DNA of 64,000 bases from a virus: positions 1-64,000 of the IMG/VR virus record IMGVR_UViG_3300018083_000446; one strand, 5' to 3'. Of this stretch, positions 9,534 to 26,461 are shown piece by piece. The notes beneath the pieces are model-generated. The model was not told the DNA's origin. It saw only the letters and a list, made by a program, of their open reading frames with translations, and did no database searches. A program made the translations under genes and the position numbers. Within the stretch, counting starts at the first letter, position 1, and every line of letters begins with the position of its first letter.

Positions 9534-9822
9534 TGCCGTTCTCCTCGTATAGAGTGATGATCGTTTCAGCGTCTACGCGGAGCGCAGCCATAAGGGCAGC
9601 GTGAATTTCAGGCCGGCGGGCCCTGGCATCCCCACGTCGAATGATCCCTCGATTGAACAGTTCGTTCTGTAAGCGCGTAGTGACCTCCTCGCTCAACCCA
9701 AGGCTAGAGATGTCGGGAGGCCCTAGCAGGATACCCTGCCCCCAAGACTTTTCAGGTGCGCCGTCAGGGACGTGGACTAGGGACTTACGACCCACTCCAT
9801 CGACGTGCGTAACAGTCATCAT
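9526..9822 (-). CDS. Head-tail connector region protein, function unknown
   Basis: 98 residues. The start (ATGATG at 9822) overlaps the end of the 9819-11066 gene, and the end overlaps the tail tube start by 8 bases, so it is translationally coupled on both sides. The middle is helical (EEVTTRLQNELFNRG) with a basic RRGDARARR patch. Its place between a connector-like gene and the tube gene suggests a head completion or tail terminator role, but no family was recognised. Confidence 0.7.
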   Translation of the reverse strand: MMTVTHVDGVGRKSLVHVPDGAPEKSWGQGILLGPPDISSLGLSEEVTTRLQNELFNRGIIRRGDARARRPEIHAALMAALRVDAETIITLYEENGNA

Positions 9823-11066
9823 GCTCCTACGGAATCCCCCAATGCTTCGTTTCGTATCATTCGCCAGGCGTGCATTGCACCGCGTGTGGTGCCCAATGGA
9901 TTGTCTAACATCCTTTCAGTCACCCGATAGGATGTTCCGCCTGCTGCACTGGCGGAAGACTCCGACATATCCACACGCCAATAGTTCGAGATGTTCTCGA
10001 TGTTCCTGCAGCCACAGAATGGCCGTTCCAGGATCGACGCTGCGAACACAGCGATGGCACGCTCCCAACGAGGGTCCATCTCGTGTGATGGTCGCTTACG
10101 CGTCTGATCTCGATAGCCGGCTCGATACCAGAATCTACCGCGATCGGGTTGGCGCGCTTGAGCATACGACGTGTATTCATAGGAACCAGTCACCCCGTTC
10201 CACATAGCTGGTTGGCCGCTAATCAACCCCAGGCGATAGTCGCGTACGACTGAACACCCGAATTGAGCACCCAACCAGCACGTGGGGCACGCTTCAGTAC
10301 CGCACCCACACGAACCCCATTGGTTCTCCCACAAGAATTGTATCTGTTGACTGGGGTCGATGAACACTCGATACACGTCTACCGCGCTAACGAAGTTGGC
10401 GTTGTCAGAGCCGTCGATAGCACGTGTGGAATCCAAACGGTCCATCAAGGCTGGTATTACGAGCTGTTCACGGCGTGCTGTAATTGTAGCGAACCCGCTA
10501 GTGAACGTCACTGTTATCGGGCGGATTTCCCATTCGGGTTCACCGCCTTCGCCAGCGAAATATACACAGATTTCATCCGCATTTAGGAGTTGTGTTGCTA
10601 CGGTGATGGTAGCGGTTTCGGGGTATCCATCAGCGTCTTCGTCCGTGTACACCACAGGAGCACTGAGTGTTAGAACGGTCTTGCCTTCGATGCCGCCTGA
10701 CACCACATGGCCGTAGTCTAGTTTCACGGCCACTCCCAAACCATTGGGGGTGAACATACGTACACGGCTGAAATCCCGCGTTGAAGGACGAACGATGTTG
10801 TGTCGTTCGTCCTTCTCAAACGTGGGCAGTGGCTTGAACCCCAACCATTGCGTTATGCGTGTTTCGGCTTCCGCGATTGCAGCGGCAATAGACTCACGCG
10901 AAACACCGTCTGTCACTTGCCAATCGTGTTGCATCAACGGTTGGCCGCATGTCGTGGTAGGTGCGAGGGTTTCGTGGTAAACCCCGTTGAAGTGTAGCGG
11001 GTGCGCGCCCATGATGCGCGCAAACCGATCTAACGACAACAGGGTTCTAGCGTCGGCGCGGGCCAT
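9819..11066 (-). CDS. Probable head-tail connector/adaptor protein with a cysteine cluster
   Basis: 415 residues from ATG 11066 (MARADARTLL); that start overlaps the upstream gene by 20 bases. The protein is largely beta, with a region around residue 270-285 of closely spaced cysteines (SCGCGTEACPTCW) and a later CGC motif, suggesting a metal site. Helical C-terminal third (DPRWERAIAVFAASILERPF). Lies between a DUF1360-like membrane protein and the small 9526-9822 gene, where actinophages keep neck proteins. Family not recognised, so the role is from context. Confidence 0.65.
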   Translation of the reverse strand: MARADARTLLSLDRFARIMGAHPLHFNGVYHETLAPTTTCGQPLMQHDWQVTDGVSRESIAAAIAEAETRITQWLGFKPLPTFEKDERHNIVRPSTRDFSRVRMFTPNGLGVAVKLDYGHVVSGGIEGKTVLTLSAPVVYTDEDADGYPETATITVATQLLNADEICVYFAGEGGEPEWEIRPITVTFTSGFATITARREQLVIPALMDRLDSTRAIDGSDNANFVSAVDVYRVFIDPSQQIQFLWENQWGSCGCGTEACPTCWLGAQFGCSVVRDYRLGLISGQPAMWNGVTGSYEYTSYAQARQPDRGRFWYRAGYRDQTRKRPSHEMDPRWERAIAVFAASILERPFCGCRNIENISNYWRVDMSESSASAAGGTSYRVTERMLDNPLGTTRGAMHAWRMIRNEALGDSVGA

Positions 11067-11382
11067 TCTTGTATACCTTCTCAGACCATATGGCGAATGC
11101 GCTAGTAGCCAACCATGCAACCACAAGCCACACAGGTGTCAGCACCAACAGCAGGAGGATCAAGGCAGTCCAAATGCTCAAGCACAGAAAGCATTCAAAG
11201 ATGTTGCCATCCGGGTGTGCGATCGGTTGATCGTCTTCGTGTTTCACACCGGTCATCTCACGCAAGCGCACGATGATCTTGAAAGGGCCGGCTTCATACA
11301 TCAGGAGGTGTGTCAACCGCCATGTTGCTGCGGCTAACATCACTGCCATCAGCCAGTTGTCCGGCCTAGCGATTTCAATCAA
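11047..11382 (-). CDS. DUF1360-like membrane protein
   Basis: 111 residues with TTG as likely start (11382). Three hydrophobic stretches: about 9-28 (WLMAVMLAAATWRLTHLL), about 65-85, and about 85-102. The TWRLTHLLMYEAGPFKI motif and the FECFLCLSIW cysteine motif are those of the DUF1360 family found in sporulating bacteria and in many phages. Function unknown. A near-consensus promoter (11401-11429) lies immediately upstream, so this gene appears to lead a separate transcript of connector and tail genes. Confidence 0.75.
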   Translation of the reverse strand: MIEIARPDNWLMAVMLAAATWRLTHLLMYEAGPFKIIVRLREMTGVKHEDDQPIAHPDGNIFECFLCLSIWTALILLLLVLTPVWLVVAWLATSAFAIWSEKVYKNGPRRR

Positions 11383-11455: not shown

Positions 11456-11773
11456 CTAGCGCGGAGGGCCCGCAGCCGCTAGCGCAGGTGATGCTTCTGT
11501 GCTGGCGTAGAGTCGAAACTCCTCTCGGTTCAGGAAGTGGTCAACATCGTCCTTGTACACCCAACGTACCTTGTGGTCAGGGTCTGACCCGAAACGATAG
11601 CGCGCACCGGTCTTCATACCAGTGTATGAAATGGGAGCGGCTGCGTCGCCAACGTATTCGATCAAAACAGCCCCGTCCTGCTGTGACGGAGTGGAAGGGT
11701 TCATCGCTTGAGCGTAGACATCGAATGAAGGTAGCGACGGAGCTCCACCACCACCAGAACAACCACAGGGCAT
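11456..11773 (-). CDS. C-terminal domain of the glycosyltransferase fusion with its own start signal
   Basis: In frame with the large glycosyltransferase gene, codon 772 is an ATG (11773-11771) preceded on the minus strand by GGGAGGAAAGA, an ideal ribosome binding site. The 105 residues that follow begin with a Cys/Gly motif (MPCGCSGGGG) and contain YTGMKTGARYRFG and a WVYKDDVDHFL segment, a compact small domain resembling stand-alone phage proteins encoded near head-tail genes. It may be made both as the tail of the fusion and as a separate protein, or the fusion may be a recent loss of a stop codon. Confidence 0.5.
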   Translation of the reverse strand: MPCGCSGGGGAPSLPSFDVYAQAMNPSTPSQQDGAVLIEYVGDAAAPISYTGMKTGARYRFGSDPDHKVRWVYKDDVDHFLNREEFRLYASTEASPALAAAGPPR

Positions 11774-14086
11774 TCTTTCCTCCCGAGTAATGTATTTCGA
11801 CCAGCGCTTGAAGATCTCTTCCTTTAGTGTCTCACGTTCCGAAAAGCCTTCTTCACGCCTTCGTCCCGTATCCATCCTGTAATGAAAGAGAGGCACAGCG
11901 AGTCTAGTGCCACAATAATCCGCCGCCACAACTTTGAGTGCGAAGTCCCAATCTTCCCACGCAGGAAGCTCTTCATCGAACCCTCCTACTTTTTCCCAGA
12001 CTGCACGCGGGTACATACAAGTGACAGGCCAAGGAAGTTGGCGGAGTACACTATCACATCCGTCCCACTCAGGGGCGTGATGGACTTCGCCGGTGTCGTG
12101 TCGGTACCAGTCGGTGTATACGAACCCGCCCACGCGATGTTGTTCGACATACATGAGCTCGAGAGCTTCGGGTTGGAAGTAGTCGTCCGCGTCAAGGAAA
12201 ACGAACGTTTCGCCTCTAGCAGCAGCCATCCCGAAGTTGCGAGCAGCACCAGCACCGATAGCGCCGGTAGTGTGGACAACATGTGCCCAAGCAGGAAGCC
12301 CAGGCAAAGGGCCACCAGTGTCGTTGACAACAATCGCTTCCCACCAGCGGAACGTTTGAGATCGTACTGAGTCGAGCGCGTCGAGTACATAGCGTTCATG
12401 GCCTGGTCCCACCGGTATGATAACCGAGACTAAACTGAATTCGTGCATCGGGATGATTGGGTCGGTTCGTTCGTCGTCCACAGGTGCTAGCCATGGAGTT
12501 AGATCGGTCTGCTTTCCCCACGGGTACCATTGGTGCCAACCCCAATCTTCCTGGGTGTTGGACATTGAGTCGGGGCGATTACGATACCTGAGGACGACTG
12601 CGTCTGTCACACGCTTCGCATTGGCTCCGAACGAGGTCGCTCGACACCAAAAGTCCGCGTCTTCCGCAGTCGGACACCGGCGGCGGTACCCACCAACTCT
12701 CTGCCATATGGAACGACGATACATCGACGTGGAACAGATCTGGTTCTGGTGTTTCATCTGGCGGCGATACTCGAACTCGGGTGGCCATGGTGACTTCCAT
12801 TCCTCTCCACTAGGCTCGATCACCGACATTGCACCGTACGCTATGTGGATAGAACGATCACGGTCCAACGCATTCGACAACACGTGCAGCACGTTGGACC
12901 CGAGCATGTTATCAGAGTCTAGTGGGACGATGTATTTGCCACGTGCGGCTGATATGCCAGCGTTCAAGGTCTCTGCTAGGTAGAGGTTCCCAGGGTTGGT
13001 GATGATGCGTACACGAGGGTTGTCTCCAGCAACCTCTCGAACGATCTGGATAGACCGGTCAGTAGATGCATCGTCAACAACGACGAGTTCCCAATCCGCT
13101 TGAGGCTGGTCCAACACCGATTTCACAGAGTCAGCGATGTACGCTTCCATGTTGTGGACAGGCATCACGACGCTGATCTTAGGGCCCGTGTGTGGTTCGA
13201 GTAGTGAACGATACAGATCGTGGTAACGACGTATCGCCACTTCCCACGTGAAGTTACGCAACACATGAGCGCGAGCCGCAGCCCCTAACCGCCTACGATG
13301 TTTGAAACAGTACTCGAGCCCCTCTACCAACGAAGCGTAGTCGTTAGCAGGCGCCAACCAGCCTGTCTCTTTGTGGATCACGATCTCGTTTTGACCGCCC
13401 CAAGCCCATCCTAGGATCGGCACGCCAGCTGCCATTGCTTCTAGCGTACCTATCCCAAACGTCTCCCGAGTGGTGCACAAGTACACACCAGCGTTCTGAA
13501 TGTAGGCCTTGTGCTCTCCGAGGCTGGACACACCAACAGCTTCGACGTTGTCAGCAGGTGGCATACCCCAGTGGACTGTCGAGATGAACTTACGATTGGG
13601 GGCCAACTTGGACAGTTCCCACAATGGAGTAGGATCACATATCGGGTCGACTCGAGTTTTGTTCCAGAGCACGTACCCTTTGTTGGCGACTGGCTCCCAC
13701 GCTGTGGGGTCTATGCCGTGGTACAACACTTGAGCGTTGATGTTAGTCCCTCGAGCGATGGCTTGCGCAACCCACTTGGACGGAGCTGTCACAACGTCGG
13801 CTGCACGCATAGCCTTGATAACGTCGCGGTTCATCTTGAGGGCCCATTTCGGCCACTCGAACCCGTACCAGTACAACCCGTGGCAATGCGACACCACAGG
13901 TATTGTAGCGTCTGCATCGGCTGCCACACCGGCGTGTGTGGCGACGAGGTCGGCTGCGCCCGGCTCATCCACGATCTCCCACCCCATTGTGGGCAACCAT
14001 TGGTTCTGAGCTTCGACGACTCGCCTTATACCACCGTCGCCACGATCCTCGCCAATGAACCGAGGGCCAATAAACAGTTTAGCCAT
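11456..14086 (-). CDS. Three-domain glycosyltransferase (GT4 + GT2 + GT2) with small C-terminal domain
   Basis: 876 residues. Residues 1-about 290 are a GT-B (GT4-like) transferase with the retaining-enzyme motif FGIGTLEAMAAGVPILG. Residues about 300-530 are a GT-A/GT2 domain (ISVVMPVHNMEAYI, VVVDDAST, and DSDNM as the DxD-type metal site). Residues about 555-770 are a second GT2 domain (VSVIIPVGPGHERY, LDADDYF). A small unrelated domain follows (residue 772 on). Such a protein could add several sugars in series. It sits last in a run of seven carbohydrate genes with 4-8 base overlaps, inside the virion gene operon, so the acceptor may be a phage structural protein; that is inference. Confidence 0.85.
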   Translation of the reverse strand: MAKLFIGPRFIGEDRGDGGIRRVVEAQNQWLPTMGWEIVDEPGAADLVATHAGVAADADATIPVVSHCHGLYWYGFEWPKWALKMNRDVIKAMRAADVVTAPSKWVAQAIARGTNINAQVLYHGIDPTAWEPVANKGYVLWNKTRVDPICDPTPLWELSKLAPNRKFISTVHWGMPPADNVEAVGVSSLGEHKAYIQNAGVYLCTTRETFGIGTLEAMAAGVPILGWAWGGQNEIVIHKETGWLAPANDYASLVEGLEYCFKHRRRLGAAARAHVLRNFTWEVAIRRYHDLYRSLLEPHTGPKISVVMPVHNMEAYIADSVKSVLDQPQADWELVVVDDASTDRSIQIVREVAGDNPRVRIITNPGNLYLAETLNAGISAARGKYIVPLDSDNMLGSNVLHVLSNALDRDRSIHIAYGAMSVIEPSGEEWKSPWPPEFEYRRQMKHQNQICSTSMYRRSIWQRVGGYRRRCPTAEDADFWCRATSFGANAKRVTDAVVLRYRNRPDSMSNTQEDWGWHQWYPWGKQTDLTPWLAPVDDERTDPIIPMHEFSLVSVIIPVGPGHERYVLDALDSVRSQTFRWWEAIVVNDTGGPLPGLPAWAHVVHTTGAIGAGAARNFGMAAARGETFVFLDADDYFQPEALELMYVEQHRVGGFVYTDWYRHDTGEVHHAPEWDGCDSVLRQLPWPVTCMYPRAVWEKVGGFDEELPAWEDWDFALKVVAADYCGTRLAVPLFHYRMDTGRRREEGFSERETLKEEIFKRWSKYITREERMPCGCSGGGGAPSLPSFDVYAQAMNPSTPSQQDGAVLIEYVGDAAAPISYTGMKTGARYRFGSDPDHKVRWVYKDDVDHFLNREEFRLYASTEASPALAAAGPPR

Positions 14087-14546
14087 TCACATACACCTGC
14101 ACGTATCCTGGCAACGACCCCGCGACATTGGTCCAAGACCTTTGCAGGTCATTGGTCTTGTCCTCATCGAAGCGGAGTTTGCCACACACTAGTTCACCTT
14201 TTCCAAATGGAAAAGCTCGCGCAACTACGTAGTGCCCTTCGAGCGCGACGTAAGGTGCCGCGTCCAACGGACTGTGGATAGACGTGACCAGATCGAACTG
14301 GCCTATAATTTCACCAATGATTAACCGTGCATACAGCCTCGCATCTCGTTTTACGTCTGGATCGAATGTTTGGCCAATGGAGGGTTTACAACCGAACATG
14401 CGTGCGGCTCGCACCATGTATCCGTTGTGGCATGCTAGGTCGAGGTACGAGCGTGGGATACCCAGGCATGCAAACATGGCATGCATGGCACGCTCACTAG
14501 CCTCGCGCACTTCAGTAGACGGGTCGATCACCGACTTCGTACTCAC
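14079..14546 (-). CDS. SAM-dependent methyltransferase-like protein
   Basis: 155 residues. Motif I-like YLDLACHNGYMVRAARMFG (about 38-56) followed by a DPDV segment and FDLVTS, an arrangement of class I methyltransferases, but shorter than most. The start overlaps the next glycosyltransferase by 35 bases. One copy of the 16-bp palindrome lies inside the coding sequence (14199-14214) and encodes AFPFGKGE in frame. Possible sugar O-methyltransferase given its neighbours; the catalytic assignment is tentative. Confidence 0.6.
   Translation of the reverse strand: MSTKSVIDPSTEVREASERAMHAMFACLGIPRSYLDLACHNGYMVRAARMFGCKPSIGQTFDPDVKRDARLYARLIIGEIIGQFDLVTSIHSPLDAAPYVALEGHYVVARAFPFGKGELVCGKLRFDEDKTNDLQRSWTNVAGSLPGYVQVYVNG
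14199..14214. repeat. Palindromic element, copy 2 (inside a coding region)
   Basis: TTTTCCAAATGGAAAA, here read through as part of the methyltransferase-like gene. This is the only copy that is clearly within a gene. Confidence 0.9.
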
Positions 14547-15183
14547 CTATGTGCTCCCAAGGCCCCACTAGATTCAACGCTGCAGCGCGTAGCCCATTGT
14601 GCATGTTGCAACGATCAGAGTAGTCGCGTTCACAGACGTACGCATCCACCCCTTCAAGGAACGGACCGACCTTTTCGTAGAACCGCTTCGACGCCAGGAA
14701 CGGACGCGTCCCGAATACGAACCCACTCCCGAACTCTAGGTGGAGCCACCACCCAGGTCCAACCGTGAACTTGGTGAAACACGGTAGGTTAGGGTGTATC
14801 GGTCCTAGACGTACGAAGTCGTATTCTTCTTCGCGTATCAACCAGATTGCTTTATCGAGATTGATTGAGCCTCGATCATACGAATCTTGGAGTTCCCAAT
14901 CGTCAGTAGTGTACAGCCAAAGTTCGTTGTGCGCCACTCTAGCCAACGCTCGATTGAGGGATGCCCCAATGCCACCGTGCGGCCCGGTTACGATTGAAAC
15001 GTCCTCGCCGGGGAAATGCGTGATGTTAGGCGTCACAGGCGATCCATCGTCCGCTATGATGTATCGAATGGTCTCCGTGCGACATTTGAGGTTCTCCACC
15101 AACGCATCTAGGCAAGTCTGGGCGTAGGCGTGGCGTGGAGCGCTGGGTTCGGGGTTGTACGTAGTCATGACCACCGCTACCAT
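14512..15183 (-). CDS. GT2-family glycosyltransferase
   Basis: 223 residues with VAVVMTTYNPEP at the N-terminus, a nucleotide-binding YIIADDGSP and LWLYTTDDWEL in place of a canonical DxD, all features of GT-A fold family 2 enzymes. Short for the family; lacks membrane segments, so it is cytoplasmic. Its start overlaps the end of the 15177-15878 gene. Third of four glycosyltransferase genes in a row (reading 5' to 3' on the minus strand). Donor and acceptor cannot be read from sequence. Confidence 0.8.
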   Translation of the reverse strand: MVAVVMTTYNPEPSAPRHAYAQTCLDALVENLKCRTETIRYIIADDGSPVTPNITHFPGEDVSIVTGPHGGIGASLNRALARVAHNELWLYTTDDWELQDSYDRGSINLDKAIWLIREEEYDFVRLGPIHPNLPCFTKFTVGPGWWLHLEFGSGFVFGTRPFLASKRFYEKVGPFLEGVDAYVCERDYSDRCNMHNGLRAAALNLVGPWEHIGEYEVGDRPVY

Positions 15184-15878
15184 GATCGTTCGGCTCCTAT
15201 GTGCACGAACAGATCACCGTAGGGTTTGACTTCTTGTACGGGCCAGATCACGCCTTGACGCGCTTCAGAAATGTGCGCCACGGCGAACTCGGTCTGGCCT
15301 GGTTCGAGCCCCTCAGGCCAAGGACCCACGCTTCTCTCCCAACCCACTGTCTCGATCCTGGGGTGGCCAGAAAAAACGTGAGGTTCAGCTGATGATGGAT
15401 CGAGTCGTAACCATAGACGACCGTGGCTGGAGGCGAATTCACCGCGGAGTGGCTGAGTGAAACCCAAGTATCCCAACCGCATGCAGCCAGCGCCGAGTTC
15501 GTTAAGCGCTCCGATGAAGAGGTCAAGGTCGAGCTCACGTGTCAACTCCCAATCATCTTCCAGAACCAGAACATGGCTGGCAAAGTTGTGTACTAGCTGT
15601 GTCGCCAAGTTGTAGTTCGCCCCATAGCCTGAACGACGTGAATTCGATGTGGTCACTAGCTCGAGCGGGATGGGCGACGTGTCGGTGATCTCGTGGAGCG
15701 TTTGAATGTACTCGTCCGTATCGCCGTCACTGGCAATGTGCACGGACAGCGCTCCGCTCGTGCGCACGTGTGCCAACGCAGACGTGAGCGTCGTTTTGGC
15801 ATACTCGAGGCGCCCGTACGTCAACAACATGATGCACACGTTACTCATTGGGGTCCTCTTGACGAGGCACCCATTCAC
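15177..15878 (-). CDS. GT2-like glycosyltransferase
   Basis: 233 residues. The N-terminus NVCIMLLTYGRLEYAKTTL and the motif VLVLEDDWELT (an acidic metal-binding motif) mark a GT-A fold. The preferred start is uncertain: an internal Met (MSNVCIM) some 10 codons in, close to the end of the preceding gene, may be the true one. Overlaps both neighbours, so it belongs to the same coupled set. Acceptor unknown. Confidence 0.75.
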   Translation of the reverse strand: MNGCLVKRTPMSNVCIMLLTYGRLEYAKTTLTSALAHVRTSGALSVHIASDGDTDEYIQTLHEITDTSPIPLELVTTSNSRRSGYGANYNLATQLVHNFASHVLVLEDDWELTRELDLDLFIGALNELGAGCMRLGYLGFTQPLRGEFASSHGRLWLRLDPSSAEPHVFSGHPRIETVGWERSVGPWPEGLEPGQTEFAVAHISEARQGVIWPVQEVKPYGDLFVHIGAERSW

Positions 15879-16533
15879 GTGTTACGAGATCACGTGTCTC
15901 CAGGATAACCCCTTGCCACGATGCCTTCGAGGCCGTATCGGCTTCAGCGTGACGACGGTAGTTGTAGAGTGGAGCGCCGTTGGCAACTGGCCAGTGACGA
16001 CCTGCACGAGGGTAATTCCCGATGATGATCGAAAGGAGTGCGGCATCCGGAGCACCCGACGCTGATTGAACTGGAAAACCACCCGTTCGTCGCCACAACG
16101 ACTTAGTAACCATTGCCGCATTACAGGCGAGCTCCTGGGTCTCACCGGTGTCCGAATAACGAACACCCACGTAGTAGTAACCGTACGGATCGCCTTGACG
16201 CGCTTGGTATTCCTTGACGCACTCTTCGATACAAGTAGGCTCGAGCCAATCATCCGACCCCAGCATAAAAACGAGTTCGCTCGGCGCAACCGCGACACCG
16301 ATGTTGAATGCATGTGCTACCCCCAGGTACCAAGGGCTCTTCCACACAGAGTACGCCAGGTCACTGGGGACCATGTGTAGGCTGACATCAGCCATGTCGT
16401 CTACGATCTGGAGATGGATACCCCCATGCGACAGATGGTTCCACGTTTGGTCGCTCACTGAACGGATGCACTCGTCCAACCACCTACGATTAGACGGGTT
16501 AGGGCCGACAGGGATCGTAACGGTCACCATCAT
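15841..16533 (-). CDS. GT2-family glycosyltransferase
   Basis: 230 residues starting MMVTVTIPVGPNPSN, then LQIVDDMAD and FMLGSDDWLEPTC, the classic GT2 donor-binding and DxD-type motifs. Start ATG overlaps the stop of the reductase gene by 4 bases. It would transfer a sugar from a nucleotide donor, perhaps the deoxy sugar made by the two upstream short-chain dehydrogenases. Confidence 0.82.
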   Translation of the reverse strand: MMVTVTIPVGPNPSNRRWLDECIRSVSDQTWNHLSHGGIHLQIVDDMADVSLHMVPSDLAYSVWKSPWYLGVAHAFNIGVAVAPSELVFMLGSDDWLEPTCIEECVKEYQARQGDPYGYYYVGVRYSDTGETQELACNAAMVTKSLWRRTGGFPVQSASGAPDAALLSIIIGNYPRAGRHWPVANGAPLYNYRRHAEADTASKASWQGVILETRDLVTREWVPRQEDPNE

Positions 16534-17336
16534 ACCGTAATTGGTTCTCGATCGTAGGCTTCGACCAACCGCGTGAGGTCGCGCAGCAGACTAACCGTCG
16601 GTTTGAGGCCTCGATACACTATAGGTTCGTCCACTGGAACGATGTTGATATCCTTGGCGAACGCATCCTTGAGGTCCAGTAGCAGTTGGTACTTCGTCGT
16701 GACGGGCGCTGCCACGTGGTACAGGCTAGGGCTCATGTGGAACATCTTGATGAGCATATCTGCCACATCGTAGACCGTACTACCCGCCCAATACGCCTGC
16801 GTGTAACCTTCGATGGTGGCACCGGCTGGTTGATCCAGGAACCACCGTAGCAACCCGTGCTGCAACCCGATGAACGACGTACGAACGATAACGGTATCAG
16901 GGACTTCACCCATCACTTTGCTACGCCCGTAGAGGTTGATCGGGTCTGTACGATCGAGTATGCTTCGCAACCCAGGTGCGTACCCGCTGAACACGCAGTC
17001 AGTAGATACCAGGATCACTTTAGAAGCGTGGAACACGTCCTTCACAACCCACGGCCCGAGCGCGTTGGCACGCACCATATCGGAAGGCATGTGCAACCCT
17101 GTCATGTGATGCGGCGTAAGGCCTGCGCAATTCACGACGACGTGAGGGTGGATAGCACCTTCTACCTTACGCATGGCGTCCCAGTCGGAGATATCATGCT
17201 CCGAACCTGTTACCCACGTCTGGTACTTGGCTAGGCGCGCCGCTGTCGCAACAGCACGCCCGAGCATACCACGCCCGCCTAACACCAACACTCGACCCTT
17301 GAAACCTTCGGGTTCTTTGAGTTCGACTTCAGACAC
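16530..17336 (-). CDS. NAD(P)-dependent nucleotide-sugar reductase (RmlD/CapF-like SDR)
   Basis: 268 residues. Rossmann motif LVLGGRGMLGRAVATAA (about 16-32), NCAGLTPHH, the STDCVFSG serine motif and the YGRSKVMGE Tyr-x3-Lys catalytic pair, in the order seen in dTDP-4-dehydrorhamnose reductases and related extended SDRs. It follows a 4,6-dehydratase-like gene with an 8-base overlap, so together they could convert a 4-keto-6-deoxy intermediate to a deoxy sugar nucleotide. Which sugar is made is not decided by sequence. Confidence 0.82.
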   Translation of the reverse strand: MSEVELKEPEGFKGRVLVLGGRGMLGRAVATAARLAKYQTWVTGSEHDISDWDAMRKVEGAIHPHVVVNCAGLTPHHMTGLHMPSDMVRANALGPWVVKDVFHASKVILVSTDCVFSGYAPGLRSILDRTDPINLYGRSKVMGEVPDTVIVRTSFIGLQHGLLRWFLDQPAGATIEGYTQAYWAGSTVYDVADMLIKMFHMSPSLYHVAAPVTTKYQLLLDLKDAFAKDINIVPVDEPIVYRGLKPTVSLLRDLTRLVEAYDREPITV

Positions 17337-18261
17337 CTTCGCTCTCCCTTATCATCTGGACTAGCTCTGTGCGGGAGAGCGGTTCGGCTAGATTGGAACT
17401 CATCGTAGGTAGTTCGCGTGTGTAGTCCTCGCTACCTGGCGGCATGATGGCGTAGAAGTTGTCGTACGCCTTGGTGCGATAGAGTTCGTAGTGGGTGATG
17501 AGGTCTTCGTGCTGCTTTTCACCAGGACGCTTCCCAACTACTTGGATTCGCCCAGCCTCGAACTCAGACCCACACACTTCCAACACAGCGTGCGCTATGT
17601 CGATCATACGTGCAGCGCGTGGGACAGGGACCGTGATCGAACCTCTAGGGGCGGCGAATGCCTTGACGATGGTATCCACAGCATCGTTGATGCTCATCCA
17701 GAACCTGGTCATGTCAGGGTCTGTTACACGAATGCAACCGTCTTCGCGGAATTGTTCACGCATGACAGGCACGACAGACCCAGTCGAACCAATGACGTTC
17801 CCGTAACGACACGCGTTGTACCCGTACTCAGATACCAGGCGTTCCATGAGCGCCTTGGTGATCCCATACGTGTTGACTGGCTGTGCAGCTTTGTCGGTGG
17901 ATATGGCTACCAAGCTTGCCATGTGTACGGTACGTGCGGCGTGCAACACGGTGCCTGATCCGACGACGTTCACCCTAGCGAACTCGTCTACGTTGAACTC
18001 ACCTTCGGGGATGAACTTCGCAGCTGCAGCGTGAATCACTGCATCGTGGCCTACCATCAGGTTCTGGACACGACCCAAGTCTGTGATATCCCCAAGCACG
18101 AATCGTGCATCGGGGAACTGTTGTGCACAACGGTATTGCTTTTCCTCGTCACGTGAGAGGATAGTGAACTTGGCGGGCCAACCGTCGCGCTGTGCACGAC
18201 GTAGAATCCCGCGACCCAAGTAACCAGTCCCCCCGGTGATCAAGATATTGCCTTTCAGCAT
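17329..18261 (-). CDS. Nucleotide-sugar 4,6-dehydratase (FlaA1/CapE-like SDR)
   Basis: 310 residues from ATG 18261, which overlaps the stop of the repeat-protein gene (TGATG). Motifs in order: ITGGTGYLGRGILRRA (NAD binding), HAAAAKFIPEGE, STDKAAQPVNTYGITKALME (S/T-D-K and YxxxK catalytic residues), RYGNVIGSTGSVVPVM, MTRFWM and GEKQHEDLI. This series is characteristic of UDP-GlcNAc 4,6-dehydratases. It is the first gene of the carbohydrate block, and its coupling to a virion protein gene suggests that glycan synthesis is timed with virion assembly. Confidence 0.87.
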   Translation of the reverse strand: MLKGNILITGGTGYLGRGILRRAQRDGWPAKFTILSRDEEKQYRCAQQFPDARFVLGDITDLGRVQNLMVGHDAVIHAAAAKFIPEGEFNVDEFARVNVVGSGTVLHAARTVHMASLVAISTDKAAQPVNTYGITKALMERLVSEYGYNACRYGNVIGSTGSVVPVMREQFREDGCIRVTDPDMTRFWMSINDAVDTIVKAFAAPRGSITVPVPRAARMIDIAHAVLEVCGSEFEAGRIQVVGKRPGEKQHEDLITHYELYRTKAYDNFYAIMPPGSEDYTRELPTMSSNLAEPLSRTELVQMIRESEGV

Positions 18262-20684
18262 CAAATCTCCCAGGGTTTGACCGCCTCTGCGGGCGGTTCG
18301 CAATTAGAGGGTTCGTACACCCAATCGTTATCACCGTAGTCTCGTGCTACTCCTACAGGCCAGACCACCTCCCTATCTAACGTATTGTCTTGTTCGCACG
18401 CTACGTAGTTCTCGAGCAACGGTGGTGCAATGTAGATCGCACCTAAGTTCTGAGCTCGTGGGCCTAGCGTGCCTCGCAGCGCTGTGGGTGGTGCAGCGAA
18501 TCGTATCTCGGCTCTAGCTCCGACACGACCTACCAATCCACCTTGGCGGAACAACAGACCAGCTACGCTTTGTGCATGCGTGCCTACGCGTGCTACCAAT
18601 ACCGTACGACGAATCGCTTGGTATGTGTTGGTGGCGCGTGGGCCGATTGTTATCGTAGCTGCAAACCCTCGCTGTGGGACCATTACAAAGTTGGGGCGAG
18701 CGCCCGCGCGCCCGACTGCAGGAGCGGATCGTACGCTAAGGATAACGAAGTCCACCCTAGCACCAGCGCGCCCCAACACACTGCCACTAGTAGTGCGCGT
18801 GGCTGCCGTTTGCGATTGAGTACCTACACTAGCCGTTCCAACTACAGTGATCCTCTTGACACCAGCGTTCTGCGCTCGAGAACCAGTGTGGCCAGCAGCA
18901 CTCCTCGACCCGCCAATAGCACCGACCAGCGTACCACGCGTGCCTGCGCTACCAACAGCAGCGCCGCTCGAGTTCTTCGCACCAACGTCCTGTGCGCGGG
19001 ACCCAACACTACCTTGCGCCGTACCAGTTAGGTTAGTGACGGTTTGTGCAGAGTTCTGAGCGTGGGTTCCTACTCGACCGCTAACGCTGGCGGTGGTTGA
19101 ATGCGCCCCAGCCGTGGTGGCTGTGGGGCCACTACGTGCAACGTCAGTCGCAGTGATTGATTTGACGCCTGCGTTCTGTGCACGTGAACCTGCATAGCCA
19201 GCTACGAACTTGGCTCCGCCTTGTGCACCCACCGTGGCAGCATGTGTGCCTACACGACCCACCACTGCAGACGTACGTTGTGCTACGTCTACATGTGTAG
19301 CTCGACTGCCAACGCTGGCGACTTGGGCGGTGGTGATGCGCTTGACGCCTGCATTGGTGGCGCGTGGACCTACACTACCTGCGACAGTCGCAGGAGCTGC
19401 TGCTGGTATAACAAACTGTGCCCACGAAACGAGTATGCGACGCTCGATGACTTCCGCGCCAACGTTGGTAGCACGTGGGCCAACGTGGCCCAAGGATGGT
19501 GGGCGTGTAGCAGCTGCTGGTATCTCTAGTTGTACCCACGATACCTGAGCACGCGCTGTTATACCTTGGCTACCAACGGTTTGAGCGTGCGCTCCCACAC
19601 GCCCCACCACCGTCGATGTGTTGGTACGTGCGACGGCCGTAGTGACCTTAGCGCCTACTGAAGCTACGTGGGGGTTGGCGATCTTCTTGACGCCAACCGC
19701 TACAGCCCTAAAGCCTGTCTTGCCAGCGATCGCACCGCTAACACCAGTGATCTGTGAACCAGCGGTTGTCGCGTGGGTGCCAACTTTAGCTGTGGCCGCT
19801 ACACTAGTGCTATGTACGCCTACGTCAGTCGCACGTGGGCCGACTCGAGCGGCGCCTGTAGCAGTCGCACTACGTACGCCTACATTCTGGGCACGTGGGC
19901 CAGCTGTTCCAACCAGTGGTATACCAGCTGCGGCGGTTGGTACTTGTAGTGATACGTAGGATACTACGGCACGCGGTTGTGGAATAAACCCTACGTTGGT
20001 AGCACGTGGACCAAGTTTGCCAACTATCGCACCCACGCTCTGTTGCATGAACGTGAGGTTAGCGCTGAACTCAACCCACGGGTTTAGGTCAGTAGTTAGC
20101 CCATCAGAATGTGCAAAGTCTGACGCGGCTGAATCACCAAAGCGAAGCGTCGTTGTGAACGAGGTAGACGTACCAGCTTTGCGAAAGCCAATCTCAATAA
20201 CGAGGTAGTCGCCAGCGCTGAACGTACGTGACGTTAGCGTGAGGGTTGTGGCTTCAGCGGCGTCCTGGAAACGCCGTGTCAGAGCAGAAGTGGTAAACTC
20301 AGGTGGGGCAGCAGCTGTGTTATCGCTAGCACTAACAGCTAGCAGGTCATTGATGTGTGTGCCCGCGCTGGAGACCTGGCGTATGTTGATCGCTACGGTC
20401 GAGTTGAGGTTAGCGTTCGACTCTAGACCACGAATGACGCCGGTGACCGTACCACTGATGGTCTGCGCCGCCATCGGTCCAACGATGTACTGGCGCATGA
20501 CCGTCGTCGCCGGGTTGGCGGCTGACGGGCTTGCACTAGCGTGGTTCGCAAGGGTTGTGTTTGCCTTAGTTGTCGAACCAATCTCGCGGTCGAAGCCCGT
20601 TGTAGCTGTGGCTGTCCAACCAGTTCCTACGGCTGGCGAAATCGCCGGCGTGGTGCCGTCTGGTAGGTAGATCCTCGTAGCCAC
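18261..20684 (-). CDS. Large virion protein made of about 24 Gly/Arg/Ala repeats
   Basis: 807 residues. The first about 215 resemble a jelly-roll-like virion domain. Then come about 24 repeats of 18-25 residues with the core G-x-x-G-(P/T/S/A)-(R/H)-A-(T/Q)-x-(V/A)-G. Three repeats carry an insert of the type VSWVQLEIPAAA. A 50-residue, Cys-containing, acidic C-terminus ends the protein. No known fold is recognised for the repeats; they could form a beta-solenoid or fibre shaft, and are rich in Ser and Thr. Single copies of the motif occur in the three other virion proteins at 1-2748, 20689-22674 and 22674-23810. It is directly upstream of the glycan block. Confidence 0.75.
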   Translation of the reverse strand: MATRIYLPDGTTPAISPAVGTGWTATATTGFDREIGSTTKANTTLANHASASPSAANPATTVMRQYIVGPMAAQTISGTVTGVIRGLESNANLNSTVAINIRQVSSAGTHINDLLAVSASDNTAAAPPEFTTSALTRRFQDAAEATTLTLTSRTFSAGDYLVIEIGFRKAGTSTSFTTTLRFGDSAASDFAHSDGLTTDLNPWVEFSANLTFMQQSVGAIVGKLGPRATNVGFIPQPRAVVSYVSLQVPTAAAGIPLVGTAGPRAQNVGVRSATATGAARVGPRATDVGVHSTSVAATAKVGTHATTAGSQITGVSGAIAGKTGFRAVAVGVKKIANPHVASVGAKVTTAVARTNTSTVVGRVGAHAQTVGSQGITARAQVSWVQLEIPAAATRPPSLGHVGPRATNVGAEVIERRILVSWAQFVIPAAAPATVAGSVGPRATNAGVKRITTAQVASVGSRATHVDVAQRTSAVVGRVGTHAATVGAQGGAKFVAGYAGSRAQNAGVKSITATDVARSGPTATTAGAHSTTASVSGRVGTHAQNSAQTVTNLTGTAQGSVGSRAQDVGAKNSSGAAVGSAGTRGTLVGAIGGSRSAAGHTGSRAQNAGVKRITVVGTASVGTQSQTAATRTTSGSVLGRAGARVDFVILSVRSAPAVGRAGARPNFVMVPQRGFAATITIGPRATNTYQAIRRTVLVARVGTHAQSVAGLLFRQGGLVGRVGARAEIRFAAPPTALRGTLGPRAQNLGAIYIAPPLLENYVACEQDNTLDREVVWPVGVARDYGDNDWVYEPSNCEPPAEAVKPWEI
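18438..20030 (-). repeat. Protein-level tandem repeats, about 60-bp period
   Basis: DNA encoding the repeats of the 807-residue protein. The unit is about 54-75 bp; Gly-Pro-Arg-Ala-Thr/Gln-Asn codons recur (for example the sense-strand word GGCCCACGTGC). Units are diverged rather than identical, so this is an old expansion. Confidence 0.8.
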
Positions 20685-20688
20685 GAGG

Positions 20689-22674
20689 TTAGCTCACCTG
20701 GTTAGCAGTGAAGCGCAAGCGCAACGCTGACCAATTAGTGATAGTGCCGCTGACTGTTTGGACCGCATCTTGCCAAGTGTATGGCACGTCAGTGTGCGTC
20801 CACGTTTGGACTACGCTCGCACCTTCCATGAGGTCCACTACCAAGTCGATCTGGTGGCCTGCCAAGTCCTTTTTGTAGCGATAGTAGAGGGTGCGTGTGC
20901 CAGCCACTGGTGCGCTTAGAACACCTAATGCTACTGTCGCAGCATCGTTCACAGGGCTAGCACTAGACTTAATGTAGTCGGCATCACTCGCTGGTAGCTC
21001 GTCTATCGAAGCGTACAGGTTGACGTTGCTATCTAGTTCGTTCGTCCAGCCACCGTCTGTTACATCAGCTACAGGTCGTACGGCTTGACCACCAGTGGTA
21101 ACACCAACGCACTGAGCCCTAGGGCCTACATGGCCAGCCACGGCTGTGCTGTCGCCATCACCCAACACCATCGCTGTACCGGTGTCGTGACGTACACTAA
21201 GTAGTGTGGTACCAGCGTCATACACCCAACCTTCCTGGGTGAGGTCACTACGCTGTGGTAATCGTACACCGTTGGACGTGACACGTGTAGGCGTGAAGGC
21301 TACACGCACACGCTCTATGCCAGGCTCGAACGTGGTATAGCTAACGCCTAGTGTGTTGTACTTGATAGCTTGCACTACTGCAGGTAGCCCACCCAACCCG
21401 CGCACTGAAACTATGTGCGTCTCGCTGGGTGGTGCCCATTCAGGTACGGCTGCGAAGCCGTCCATGTAGTGCTTGATCAGATCGCCGTAGCTATCGGACC
21501 ACCAGTAGTCGTCGGTCGCTGCCAACGCTGCTTTGATACGACCGCCAGTGTTATCTAGTCCGTACGTGACGAAGTTGAACGAACGATAAGCGTCCTCCTT
21601 GAAGGACGACGTACTGGTCTGGGCGTACCACAACGCGTTGATTGACGCCCACCGTGCTGTGTGGCTAGTCAGCCCTGGATCGCCGCAGCACACATCTTGT
21701 TCGTCGATTCGCTGCGCGGAGAAACTAGTACCGGCACTGAAGTTCGTGACCACCCACGTTAGCAACGCTGGCACATGCGTAGTGTAGTTCGGGTCTACAT
21801 CAGCTGGGTTATTACGATTCAGGATATACCGACACGTCTCCATCGGGACGAGTTGATTGTCGTTACCAGCTTCGTCTTGAGAACGATGGATGTCCTCGAA
21901 GTACGCCTGCCACTTGTTCGTGGTCATTGGCCCGTTGGCACCAAGCACCCAATTCCAAGCCGTGTTACGTGCCGTAGTGTAGGCGCTGGTATTGCCAATA
22001 CCCAGACGTATGAGCTCGTCGAAAAGCTCCACACCAGCCACAGCGTTGCAACCGTATTCCTGGTTGACAGCTCCTGTCGGGCCATACACACGGAACGGCC
22101 ACGGTGACTGTGTTGTGCTACCAGTACGTACGTGGGATTGCAATGCATCAGCGCAATCAATCGCAGCGTCACGATAGGTAGTGTCACCGGTCAGCTGCCA
22201 GAACTTGAGGTACGCGTGGCCTAGTTCACCTATCTTGTCTGGCTCGAGCCCGTCGGTATCATCGTCGTCAGCATCGCCATCACCAGTGTACGTGAACGCA
22301 CCAAACTCAGACGTGGCGAACGGAACGTTAGGCCAATCCCATGAACCAGACGTCGTGCCATTGGCGAGCATGTAGTCCAAGCAAGCCTTGACGTGTGATA
22401 TGAGACTGCTATCCCCGGAGAACGCAAGCCACGGTATCAACGAGTCCACGAAGCACGCGTAGGTCATGGCCGGGTTGTGCGACCCGAACTCCGTACCACC
22501 ACTGTCGAAACAACAGTACCTCAAGTACGGCTTGGTACCGCCTACAGTAGGTACGGTCTTGAAGTAGTTCCAAGCGTAGCCGATCAACTGCACGTAGGCA
22601 GTGTTCTGCGGGGTCAACCACGACAGTAGTTTACTGCTACCGTCGAGGACTTCCGTGTGTCCGTTGATCGCCAT
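20689..22674 (-). CDS. Virion protein with six-hairpin-glycosidase-like domain and shared C-terminal module
   Basis: 661 residues. Residues 1-about 430 are helical with repeated aromatic motifs (LGHAYLKFWQLTGDTTYRDAA, EYGCNAVAGVELFDEL, ARWASINALWYAQ) typical of (alpha/alpha)6-barrel glycoside hydrolases and lyases. An Asp-rich loop (DGDADDDDTDG) sits near residue 130. Residues about 510-661 begin with GHVGPRAQCVG and match the C-terminal region of the next gene (both contain DLVVDLMEGASVVQTWTHTD). It may cleave a host surface polysaccharide at adsorption. Its catalytic acid was not identified. Confidence 0.7.
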   Translation of the reverse strand: MAINGHTEVLDGSSKLLSWLTPQNTAYVQLIGYAWNYFKTVPTVGGTKPYLRYCCFDSGGTEFGSHNPAMTYACFVDSLIPWLAFSGDSSLISHVKACLDYMLANGTTSGSWDWPNVPFATSEFGAFTYTGDGDADDDDTDGLEPDKIGELGHAYLKFWQLTGDTTYRDAAIDCADALQSHVRTGSTTQSPWPFRVYGPTGAVNQEYGCNAVAGVELFDELIRLGIGNTSAYTTARNTAWNWVLGANGPMTTNKWQAYFEDIHRSQDEAGNDNQLVPMETCRYILNRNNPADVDPNYTTHVPALLTWVVTNFSAGTSFSAQRIDEQDVCCGDPGLTSHTARWASINALWYAQTSTSSFKEDAYRSFNFVTYGLDNTGGRIKAALAATDDYWWSDSYGDLIKHYMDGFAAVPEWAPPSETHIVSVRGLGGLPAVVQAIKYNTLGVSYTTFEPGIERVRVAFTPTRVTSNGVRLPQRSDLTQEGWVYDAGTTLLSVRHDTGTAMVLGDGDSTAVAGHVGPRAQCVGVTTGGQAVRPVADVTDGGWTNELDSNVNLYASIDELPASDADYIKSSASPVNDAATVALGVLSAPVAGTRTLYYRYKKDLAGHQIDLVVDLMEGASVVQTWTHTDVPYTWQDAVQTVSGTITNWSALRLRFTANQVS

Positions 22675-23810
22675 TAGACCTGGTTAGCTGTGAAGCGTAC
22701 GCGCAAGTTCGAATAGTCGCTGATGGCGTTGGTTATTGTTTGTTCAGCCAGTGTATGAGTCGTGGAAATATCGGTATGGGTCCACGTCTGCACGACGCTA
22801 GCGCCTTCCATCAAATCCACAACCAAGTCCACTTGCGCGCCGCTGATATCCTTCCAATAGCGATAGCGTAGCGTGCGCGTACCGCTAATCGGGGCTGACA
22901 ACGTACCCATCGCCAGAGTGACTGGTGATGAGTTAGGGTCTTGTTCGGAGCGAATGTAGTCAGCATCGTCCGCTATAACTTCATCCACCACTGCAAACAA
23001 GTTCGTGGTAGCGCCGGTCTGCGTAGTCCACGCACCAACGCTAATGTCCGATGTTGGCTGTACAACTTGCCCTTCAGCTTTTGTACCTGCACACTGAGCT
23101 CGAGCACCTACGCTACCTAGCGCCGCGCCTGAAAGGTTTGTGCCACTGGTGCCTTCGAACGCAGCGATAACCATCGCTGTATCGGCCGATATCGTGCCCC
23201 ATACGTGGCCCCGACTTTGTGCCGTCGTCACCGACTGGTTTACTATAGAACCAGCCATGTTGACGGCGCCATTCGTCTCGCGGCTAGCAGCGTTGAATTC
23301 AGCCCACGTACCCTCAGTGCCCGTTTGGTTCAGGTTGATTGTGACGGTGCCACCCAAGTCGATGGAAATGACCGCCATGTACAACGCGTTGACTTTGCCA
23401 GTGTTGTCAACGTTGAGCGAATCGTGCAGAGTTTGAGCAGTCGATGCGTTGTTGTTCGACCCGATCAACGAACTGGCTGTCAACGCATCTTGCACTTCAG
23501 CCAGGAACAACGTGACCCCACCGCTCGTACTAGCCCAAGTTACGTTGACTGAACCAGCCGACAAGTTCTCCTTATAGAACATGCCGGCATTGGCACCAGC
23601 ACCACCATGGCGTCGTGCAATGACCGTGTATGCACCGTGCACGTTGTCCGAGATGGTTAGGCCAGTTTCCTGGCCGCCAGACCCACCAAAGTTCGTTAGC
23701 CCAGCAACTGCCAAACGCCCGGCTGTGTAAGTGATAAAGCCGTTCAGCGTACCACCGGTACCGGTGTCTACAGCGTGCTTAACCGTTTGCGTGACAGTAG
23801 GGGCAGCCAT
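22674..23810 (-). CDS. Virion protein with beta-sandwich N-terminus and shared C-terminal module
   Basis: 378 residues. The N-terminal about 225 are Gly/Thr/Ser-rich beta structure without recognisable motif. From about residue 230 (GSVGARAQCAG) the protein is related to the C-terminus of the 20689-22674 product, including GTRTLRYRYWKD and the MEGASVVQTWTHTD block, so one module has been duplicated or swapped between neighbouring genes. Its start is separated by a single base step from the stop of the 20689 gene's neighbour, indicating coupled translation. Probable appendage or decoration protein. Confidence 0.7.
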   Translation of the reverse strand: MAAPTVTQTVKHAVDTGTGGTLNGFITYTAGRLAVAGLTNFGGSGGQETGLTISDNVHGAYTVIARRHGGAGANAGMFYKENLSAGSVNVTWASTSGGVTLFLAEVQDALTASSLIGSNNNASTAQTLHDSLNVDNTGKVNALYMAVISIDLGGTVTINLNQTGTEGTWAEFNAASRETNGAVNMAGSIVNQSVTTAQSRGHVWGTISADTAMVIAAFEGTSGTNLSGAALGSVGARAQCAGTKAEGQVVQPTSDISVGAWTTQTGATTNLFAVVDEVIADDADYIRSEQDPNSSPVTLAMGTLSAPISGTRTLRYRYWKDISGAQVDLVVDLMEGASVVQTWTHTDISTTHTLAEQTITNAISDYSNLRVRFTANQV

Positions 23811-24216: not shown

Positions 24217-24939
24217 CTACGCGACGGCGCCTAGATCAACCGACCCCGACGACAGAGCGTAGGTGCCCTGACCTGCGAATGTCTCAGGCACACACTTCTG
24301 CGAATAGAACACGAACGGCTGCGTACCGGTCAGGTCTATCGCAGTACCGCCGCTGGTGGTGGCAACGCGGAACGAGTCCGTAGCCAGACCAGTAGCGATC
24401 ACGAAATAGATCGTACCTACGCTGAGGCCCGTAGGCAACGTACCCCAGAACACCACACGGTTGTCAGCGACTAGACCGTGGGCCTTGCTGAAGATATCGT
24501 TGTTGGTGATGTCGGTCGAAGTCTCAGCAGACGAGTACAGCAGAGCACCACCACCTGCGGGCATCATACCACTGAAGTTGCCCGTTGTGATGGCGTCCCA
24601 GAACCCGACCCACGCTACGGTTGTAGACGCTGGCACGTCCCACGTTGGAAGCGTAGCCGCCAACGCTTTTGCACCGCCCGAACTAGCTGCCCACGTGAGG
24701 GCCTTGCGTGCGTAGGCAGGTGAACCACCAGTGACTTCGTTGGTGCCAGTTGTAGAATACGCCGTGTGAAGCGAACCGTGTGTTGCTTCAGTGGCGAACC
24801 CATCTAGTGCGGCGTGCTTGCCATTGTTGGCCATGAAGAACGCCTCGTATGGCCGCAGCAACCGCGCCAAATCGCGCGCTATAGGCGCACGATGCACGAC
24901 ACCACACGGACACAACCGAGGCGCAGGCAAATGAATCAT
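24217..24939 (-). CDS. Probable capsid decoration/minor structural protein
   Basis: 240 residues from ATG 24939, chosen because CTGGAGGAGGAACGC, a very strong ribosome binding site, precedes it. A second possible start (ATG 24834, MANNGKHAAL) begins a region found as stand-alone phage structural proteins (GANEVTGGSPAYARKA-like segment, here GTNEVTGGSPAYARKAL). Residues about 160-215 have the AHGL..V.FWGTLPTGLSVGTIYFV pattern common in phage appendage proteins. The first 35 residues hold a CPCG motif. It lies directly after the major capsid gene and its hairpin. Confidence 0.7.
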   Translation of the reverse strand: MIHLPAPRLCPCGVVHRAPIARDLARLLRPYEAFFMANNGKHAALDGFATEATHGSLHTAYSTTGTNEVTGGSPAYARKALTWAASSGGAKALAATLPTWDVPASTTVAWVGFWDAITTGNFSGMMPAGGGALLYSSAETSTDITNNDIFSKAHGLVADNRVVFWGTLPTGLSVGTIYFVIATGLATDSFRVATTSGGTAIDLTGTQPFVFYSQKCVPETFAGQGTYALSSGSVDLGAVA

Positions 24940-24961
24940 GCGTTCCTCCTCCAGGAGTGAT

Positions 24962-24981
24962 GGGGGTCCCGAAGGACCCCC
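24962..24981 (-). terminator. Stem-loop with UUCG tetraloop after the major capsid gene
   Basis: On the minus strand GGGGGTCC-TTCG-GGACCCCC: an 8-bp perfect stem closed by C(UUCG)G, an exceptionally stable tetraloop. It lies 7 bases past the capsid stop codon and has no U-tract, so it is more likely an mRNA-stabilising 3' structure or a partial attenuator than a strong terminator. Confidence 0.8.
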
Positions 24982-24988
24982 TACACCG

Positions 24989-26461
24989 TTACCCCTTGTA
25001 ATCCGCGAAGAACGAGGGTGCAGTCGATCGCGAGGTGACACCACCGTTGATGAAGTACGGATCGTTCGGGAACGGATCACGCGTGTGCAGCATCGGGCTG
25101 TACTGAACGTTGAGGAGCCGACCAAACAGGTGAGGCACCGGAACGATCAATCGCGGCTCGATGTACGCCTGCCACTGCACGCATGTGTTGACTGGAGGCT
25201 TGAGGTGCCAGAAGTACTGACCACCATCAGTCCAGTAGAACGTGCCCATGCGGCCATCGTTGACGGCGTCCATTGTGCCGTTGCGATAGTCGAGGAATTC
25301 CCAGTAGATGCCCGCCATACCACCGAGGAAGGTGTTGCAGATGAAATAGATATCGGACGCGAATGACCCGGCGGTCACCTTGTTCGATGTCGTCTGCGAA
25401 TCTTCGTCGATAGCATCGTCGAACACGACTGGGAACTGAGCGCCATCAACGAGCAGATACTTGCCCTGGCGCATGGCGTCGCGCATCTGGATCTGGTCGT
25501 TGGCGTTCATGAGCAGCGTCTGCGTGCCGTCTGTAGCACGCATCTGACAGCCGAACGTCATGTACGAACACGGCCAGAACGCCGTGAGTTCGTAGAACAG
25601 GTTCTCGCGCATGGCAAGCGACCACGACGCCGGCATGAGCCCCATCTTCTCGGCGTTCGAGCGCAAGATGCGGATCATGTAGACGATGGTACGAACGATG
25701 TCGGCGCCAGACGAAGTGTCACCAACACGCTTGTAGCCGTAGTCCAACACCAGCGAGTTCAGCGAAGGGCACGACTGGCCTGTGATGGCGTCCTTCTTGT
25801 TCGTGCCAATCAGCAAGTCCAGCCCAGGGAATTCACGATAGCCACCGCCGCTAGTGTTGTTGGCGGGGTTACCCGAGTACACCTGGCGAAGCAGCTTGTT
25901 CTGGAACGACACACCCAGCTCGACGAAACGCATGAGCGCCTCACGTGCCAAGTTCTGCGCACCACCCGGGATGCTGGGCGTGATGATGCCGTTGGAGTTG
26001 ACGCCAGGCGCCAGCAACGGATCATTGACGATACGCAGGTCCATGAACTCAGAGCGGTTGATTTGCTGGCGTGCCAGTGTGGTCAGCTCGAGTTCACGAG
26101 TCTTGAATGCGTAGCGTCCGAACTGCGCCGTCTGGTAGCAGTTCTTCATTGGACCAGCTGTAGGCGGCTCGTCGCACAACCCCACCGGGTTCGCACCTGA
26201 ACCTGGCAAAAAGCCCGTCAGGTACGGGAACAGCGGGTCGGTCGAGTTGGTAGGGCGAGCTGGAATAGCGCCCGCCAGACCCACAGGTTGGACGCGAGTC
26301 GAGATGATGTCCCGCTCGAGGCCTGGGTATGACCACAACCCGTTGACCCCATGCAGGTATGGCGTGGTGTTCCCATACACGCCGGACGGTGCAGTGTGCC
26401 GCTGGCCGGCGACAACCTGCGAGCTCGAAAGCTCTCGAGCCAGATCCTGAAGCAGACCCAT
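24989..26461 (-). CDS. Major capsid protein
   Basis: 490 residues from ATG 26461 with an AAGGGGGG-type ribosome binding site. Follows the protease gene, is followed by a stable hairpin, and has the composition of an abundant virion protein (few Cys, Asn/Phe-rich beta segments such as YIEPRLIVPVPHLFGRLLNVQYSP). The N-terminal about 100 residues are flexible, Gly/Pro-rich, and may act as the delta or scaffold-like segment cleaved by the protease. Longer than a minimal HK97-fold protein, so an added domain is possible. Confidence 0.85.
   Translation of the reverse strand: MGLLQDLARELSSSQVVAGQRHTAPSGVYGNTTPYLHGVNGLWSYPGLERDIISTRVQPVGLAGAIPARPTNSTDPLFPYLTGFLPGSGANPVGLCDEPPTAGPMKNCYQTAQFGRYAFKTRELELTTLARQQINRSEFMDLRIVNDPLLAPGVNSNGIITPSIPGGAQNLAREALMRFVELGVSFQNKLLRQVYSGNPANNTSGGGYREFPGLDLLIGTNKKDAITGQSCPSLNSLVLDYGYKRVGDTSSGADIVRTIVYMIRILRSNAEKMGLMPASWSLAMRENLFYELTAFWPCSYMTFGCQMRATDGTQTLLMNANDQIQMRDAMRQGKYLLVDGAQFPVVFDDAIDEDSQTTSNKVTAGSFASDIYFICNTFLGGMAGIYWEFLDYRNGTMDAVNDGRMGTFYWTDGGQYFWHLKPPVNTCVQWQAYIEPRLIVPVPHLFGRLLNVQYSPMLHTRDPFPNDPYFINGGVTSRSTAPSFFADYKG

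Follow-up and report, generated by a model that had tools for sequence, protein, structure and literature searches.

A 24-fold, 20-residue repeat private to one phage as an apparent variant of exchangeable virion surface arms

Introduction

The adenovirus fibre possesses a triple β-spiral shaft, in which degenerate repeats of 15-22 residues with a conserved Gly/Pro turn follow an anchoring N-terminus, an architecture reportedly described by van Raaij in 1999 (cited in PMC12796354). The repeat array presented here may resemble this shaft, with degenerate repeats, a putative Gly/Pro turn and a probable anchor at the N-terminus; however, its profile has no match in the PDB, its period is fixed at 20 residues and the glycine at position 0 of each unit (Gly0) is invariant.

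The known arms of phages are helical coils, collagen-like or Ig domains, and those of head fibres and decoration proteins were proposed to aid adhesion (PMC7602432). Phi29 gp8.5, SPP1 gp12 and T4 Hoc (PMC7602432) resemble the present protein, as read here, in that a conserved capsid-side domain is followed by an elongated repetitive arm, encoded among the head-module genes; however, the arm of the present protein is by sequence neither helical, collagen-like nor Ig. The amino-acid tandem repeats of Borgs, which are recent, near-perfect at the DNA level and mostly disordered (PMC9879509), are likewise private, new in each element and located in surface-type proteins, whereas the present array contains no DNA repeat detectable by Tandem Repeats Finder (TRF) and its codons are scrambled. 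Moreover, the N-terminal domain has homologues in Streptomyces phage Wakanda gp27, encoded between the major capsid protein (MCP) and a head-tail adaptor, and in a protein of an uncultured phage (Caudoviricetes MW202601). Compared to the 807-residue protein, both consist of the domain alone (about 224-252 residues) and have no repeat arm.

Surface arms of phages on conserved anchors are a known kind of structure; for the present repeat and for the swapping of repeat types, no description was found in the open-access literature searched.

Results and discussion

Overall architecture of the repeat protein

The window, which is the whole stretch of DNA analysed, covers 64,000 of the 64,973 bases of one virus record. 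The repeat protein and its parts are located as follows:

18261..20684, minus strand: 807-residue repeat protein, whole coding sequence, GTG start
20040..20684, minus strand: N-terminal domain, residues 1-215, predicted β-sandwich
18420..20030, minus strand: 24-unit repeat array, residues 219-755, consensus VVGRVGPRATNVGVkxITTA, period 20
18264..18419, minus strand: C-terminal segment, residues 756-807, acidic, without the repeat

A preliminary description had placed about 24 diverged units at 18438-20030. These coordinates are correct and correspond, on the minus strand, to residues 219-749 of the open reading frame (ORF), and 24 units could indeed be anchored on an invariant glycine (Gly0 in 24/24). 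Position +2 is R in 16 of the 24 units and H in five, +3 is A in 19/24, +4 is T or Q in 19/24, and +7 is G in 15/24. Sixteen of the 23 spacings between units are exactly 20 residues, and the others are 19, 21, 22, 22, 37, 37 and 38 residues; the 37-, 37- and 38-residue spacings contain an extra strand-like second element of ~17 residues (VSYVSLQVPTAAA, VSWVQLEIPAAA, VSWAQFVIPAAA). A higher-order repeat of 60 residues was rejected, as the autocorrelation at lag 60 is no stronger than that at lag 20 or 40. In a held-out test, HMMs built from half of the units scored the other half at 72-75 bits, compared to at most 8.3 bits for 200 shuffles of the region, so the array is not a product of chance.

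The array is composed of A, G, V, T and R, and is strongly basic, with a net charge of +45 over 542 residues. Residues 219-755 contain no collagen-like G-X-Y run, and the 807-residue protein has no recognised tip domain and matches no Pfam and no PHROG family at E<=1, including no YadA-like head repeat. Searches with the array found no relative by tblastn against phages and none that could be confirmed among 84,980 genomes, and the DNA pattern GPRA[TQ]NVG gave two matches in viral contigs, both in wrong frames. The 24-fold repeat is genuine and confined to this phage.

A conserved N-terminal domain encoded among head genes

The preliminary description was right about the repeat of the 807-residue protein and overlooked a conserved domain in front of it. 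Residues 1-215 match Wakanda gp27 and the MW202601 protein at 33-36% identity, and a profile of these three homologues recruits 80 more viral contigs. AlphaFold2, run with 59 sequences, predicted a confident β-sandwich with a pLDDT mostly above 90. Among solved structures, the domain is closest in fold to the C-terminal domain of CocE-type hydrolases (Z 9-12), followed by the VP2 projection of IBDV, a birnavirus (Z ~8); the family has no sequence match to solved structures, and no function can be read from a common sandwich fold. The BFVD neighbours include phage proteins named collagen repeat and S74 peptidase/chaperone, names that are hallmarks of fibres.

At the loci encoding this domain, the genes in front include those of the major head protein, protease, portal and TerL, and the genes behind encode head-tail adaptors, tail tube and terminator. 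The window gene comes after portal-, protease- and MCP-like ORFs, which were assigned by order and size, the putative MCP having no Pfam or PHROGs match, and after the neighbouring ORF listed below. With a homologous N-terminal domain and a neighbourhood of head genes, the 807-residue protein belongs with the Wakanda gp27-type proteins, and its gene order suggests a location on the head or neck surface. One neighbour bears on this location:

24217..25125, minus strand: neighbouring ORF, PHROG 240 (head protein) and Pfam Gp80 (GP4 fiber I), true start inside the ORF

In Pfam, Gp80 and gp77, both nearby, are described as a fibre and a fibre-tail adaptor protein of podophage GP4, which makes the neck or tail another possible site of the arms.

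Related phages bear different repeats on the same domain

Of the ~80 loci with the anchor domain, 43 encode at least 75 further residues, usually a tandem array whose repeat differs between loci (for example GSYxITG, GVPTIDKA, SGTGTLTA, AYLxGG, DAGAGSEA or SPSESPS). Autocorrelation revealed array periods mostly of 20-23 residues, with exceptions of 14, 18, 24 and longer. On the domain tree, arm presence follows clades (11 changes versus 25 in shuffles), and the repeat types are scattered, with 35 changes for 25 types and, for most types, as many changes as members. Anchors that are 82% (L032/L050) and 76% (L006/L009) identical bear unrelated arrays, and anchors only 33% identical (L015/L048; L044/L027) bear the same kind of array, a comparison limited to these latter pairs and similarly clear cases because some cross-locus matches (e.g. 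L050/L061) are no better than those of reversed arrays.

The window array itself has no detectable relative among the arrays of the other loci. Its BLAST matches to them (E down to 6e-12) were rejected as an effect of composition, since reversed arrays score alike and the matches vanish under composition statistics. Taken as a type, the window repeat is one of about 20 that are interchangeable on the anchor domain, which the preliminary description had also overlooked. That the same base in relatives bears different repeats of nearly equal length makes the window array look, from sequence comparison, like one version of an exchangeable virion surface arm.

Arm charges in relatives span +11 to -12 per 100 residues; opposite surface charges occur even within one motif family (L027, +11, versus L044, -9 per 100 residues). 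As one motif family occurs with both signs of charge, the core residues look structural and the exposed ones variable. The arms of L059, L062, L025, L066 and L081 are mucin-like, with SPSESPS or poly-Ser/Thr sequences on the anchor and 35-82% Ser+Thr, and are likely glycan-bearing.

The motif is held at the protein level

In the array DNA, Tandem Repeats Finder detected only a 21-base fragment, and where residues are identical between units, the codon identity is 0.32, compared to 0.31 expected from independent draws. Without a DNA repeat by TRF and with codon agreement at chance, a recent DNA tandem repeat is ruled out. Synonymous differences between units are saturated (pS 0.74), and pN is 0.44 at the core positions -4 to +8 versus 0.67 outside the core. 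Since codons agree at chance, pS is saturated and pN is lower in the core, the array is old, or is kept free of DNA repetition, and it is selection on the protein that preserves the motif. Scrambled codons with a conserved core are also found in most of the other arrays. The preliminary description had raised the case of ordinary low-complexity linkers without fold or conservation, which a fixed 20-residue period and a core conserved despite fully scrambled codons argue against.

In the arrays of L027, L044, L061 and L033, which have up to 75 units, codon choice is as random as independent draws. Such randomness could reflect selection against recombination-prone DNA repeats.

Predicted structure and a proposed shaft

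Structure prediction of multi-unit stretches, as proposed in the preliminary description, was run and gave two strands per unit, but no confident fold. AlphaFold2 modelled the array with a pLDDT below 50 without homologues. In a self-aligned model of six units, two strands were predicted in every unit at a pLDDT of about 50, and a Foldseek search with this model returned only insignificant β-solenoid neighbours (E>=3). Such values, <50 or ~50, would fit disorder as much as an obligate oligomer. Among the traits of a triple β-spiral, the period of 20 and Gly0 fit, and the two strands per unit come from the low-confidence model (pLDDT ~50).

We read the array, with a probability of about one half, as the shaft or arm of a fibre or decoration protein on the virion surface, at the capsid or neck. 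The N-terminal β-sandwich (residues 1-215) would serve as an anchor on the head or neck, as gene order suggests, and the following 24 units might form an elongated, probably β-rich shaft, in which each 20-residue unit may contribute two short strands joined by a G-P/T/S/A turn. The residues V-4, G/A-3, V-1, G0, A+3, V+6 and G+7 would make up the structural core, and the exposed positions would diversify. Related phages would keep the anchor and the period and exchange the repeat type, with one type running across several surface proteins.

It seems rather unlikely that the array is instead an intrinsically disordered spacer, that is, a flexible bristle which separates modules or shields the capsid, and whose sequence is held by composition and only loosely by the motif. 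The pLDDT below 50 over the whole array, the A, G, V, T and R composition and the plainly low-complexity arrays in relatives (SPSESPS in L059, L062, L025 and L066; poly-Ser/Thr in L081) are consistent with such a bristle; however, the exact 20-residue spacing, the invariant glycine and a core conserved with scrambled codons exceed what composition gives, and the valines and alanines are at fixed places within a period common to other families.

Read as a surface shaft or arm, the odd private motif turns into a testable class with a conserved virion anchor, an arm sequence that is swapped freely and a period kept at 20-23 residues. If exposed, the arms are candidates for fast-changing surface traits, such as adhesion, charge and avoidance of immunity or superinfection. 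The common period predicts a shared fibre architecture that is yet to be solved and that accommodates widely differing sequences.

A sugar cassette directly downstream

11456..18303, minus strand: sugar cassette directly downstream of the repeat protein, two NAD-dependent epimerase/dehydratases, glycosyltransferases and two small ORFs

The members of the cassette include an 876-residue protein that combines one GT1-type with two GT2 domains, other GT2 proteins, and epimerase/dehydratases that are RmlD-like and Polysacc_synt_2-like; its two small ORFs have no Pfam match. The cassette is embedded in the block of structural genes, with the repeat protein on one side and a 435-residue ORF at 9819-11126 on the other.

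The array might be a glycosylation acceptor for this adjacent cassette, with a T/Q/N site in each unit and single units that mark other proteins, a reading we hold to be improbable. Besides the cassette itself, it is favoured by GT2 domains in 4/90 downstream proteins of repeat-bearing loci versus 0/64 in arm-less loci, although this 4:0 contrast is small and most repeat-bearing loci have no glycosyltransferase beside them. Moreover, position +4 is T in only 10/24 units, and the array is poorer in Ser+Thr than the N-terminal domain (17% versus 26%), which makes glycan carriage less likely and speaks against a mucin-like Ser/Thr(/Pro)-rich carrier.

Single units in neighbouring proteins and matching within a genome

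The preliminary description had further reported that four virion proteins share the repeat, and that single units mark the start of a C-terminal module common to the two neighbouring proteins. The unit profile was searched, with a cut-off of E = 0.01, against the 8023 ORFs that the window and 85 other loci contain together. It retrieved the 807-residue protein (E 1e-89), the 661-residue protein (E 1.4e-3) and the 378-residue protein (E 2.4e-3), the latter two being the only other ORFs that passed; the repeat has no match in Pfam, PHROGs or the PDB.

21091..21144, minus strand: single unit (AGHVGPRAQCVG) of the 661-residue protein, directly before the C-terminal module
20701..21090, minus strand: C-terminal module of the 661-residue protein
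23079..23126, minus strand: single unit (LGSVGARAQCAG) of the 378-residue protein, directly before the C-terminal module
22683..23072, minus strand: C-terminal module of the 378-residue protein, 57% identical to that of the 661-residue protein
499..543, minus strand: weak single unit (VVGRLGPRGRTTG) of the left-edge protein, behind malectin

The single units of the 661-residue protein (residues 511-528, 15.6 bits) and the 378-residue protein (residues 229-244, 14.0 bits) have scores that 0/1000 shuffles reach in either case, and their position at the start of the module is borne out. In the left-edge protein, the unit (residues 736-750) sits just behind malectin (587-727) and scores only 6.2 bits (2/1000 shuffles). 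Because this unit is weak, three of the four proteins are sure carriers and the fourth is a probable one. The carriers appear to be virion proteins, judging from gene position, and the single units in the neighbours would be the array's spacer element, placed between a variable front domain and the C-terminal module. Scans of viral contigs with this module found no sufficiently conserved stretch and confirmed no relative.

The first ~430 residues of the 661-residue protein (window 20689-22674, minus strand) have no Pfam match and appear, by eye, α-toroid glycosidase/lyase-like, and the protein is possibly an enzyme on the virion.

The reuse of a motif across proteins recurs in other genomes with other motifs. 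The array type is found again in other ORFs of its own locus in L027, L061, L025, L066 and L044, the last with four more ORFs; some of the matches in L044 also cover the C-terminal module, and the ORF in L066 is short and directly upstream. Same-genome sharing thus amounts to 5/44 loci (11%) at E<1e-10, compared to 0.7% of cross-genome pairs. The 132-residue C-terminal module of the 661- and 378-residue proteins is also present in L044 and L027, in which it is preceded by AYLEG, AYADG or VYIEG from their own repeat, versus GPRAQCVG and GARAQCAG in the window. Over the 44 residues around the module start in the window, the window profile scores 20.0 and 18.4 bits and the profiles of the other genomes score below 0; the scoring is reversed for L027 and L044, which together represent one repeat family. 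As the genome's own repeat precedes the module in the window, L044 and L027, the reuse is real and recurrent.

These matches raise the tentative possibility of a genome-wide "repeat code" on the surface of many phages, in which one private type of ~20 residues would run across several virion proteins, be matched by protein-level selection despite scrambled DNA, and, with the divergence of lineages, be replaced as a whole set by an unrelated type of equal period. Such a code, if true, would be like serotype switching. That units of different proteins pack together, so that all surface proteins of one phage need the same type, is quite improbable, for although the same-genome sharing, the own repeat before the module in all three genomes and a synonymous saturation that argues for matching by selection rather than recent copying would suit such homotypic docking or oligomerisation, most loci have no second carrier within the flanks examined, a single unit is a small interface, and co-acquisition as a gene block would also yield matching. 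Of the docking, oligomerising or modification unit suggested in the preliminary description, the reuse in several virion proteins stands, the unrelated repeats that occupy the same position in relatives speak against a common sequence-specific docking code, and the Ser/Thr content given above speaks against a glycan carrier.

Propellers and a second short element

A 500-residue ORF of the tail region (window 8031-9533, minus strand) carries a BNR/YCF48-like propeller after an initial stretch of ~200 residues, and the arm of L011 has an NHL propeller at its end, behind the repeats; it seems that propellers serve repeatedly as virion tips.

In addition to the repeats, VSW(V/A)QLEIP-like strands (window 18261-20684; L052, VEVSWAEFEIPDA) and KRTTNIGAQVEY-like pairs (L044:1046-1789) constitute a second short element, found between modules and inside arrays, which may be a further interchangeable spacer.
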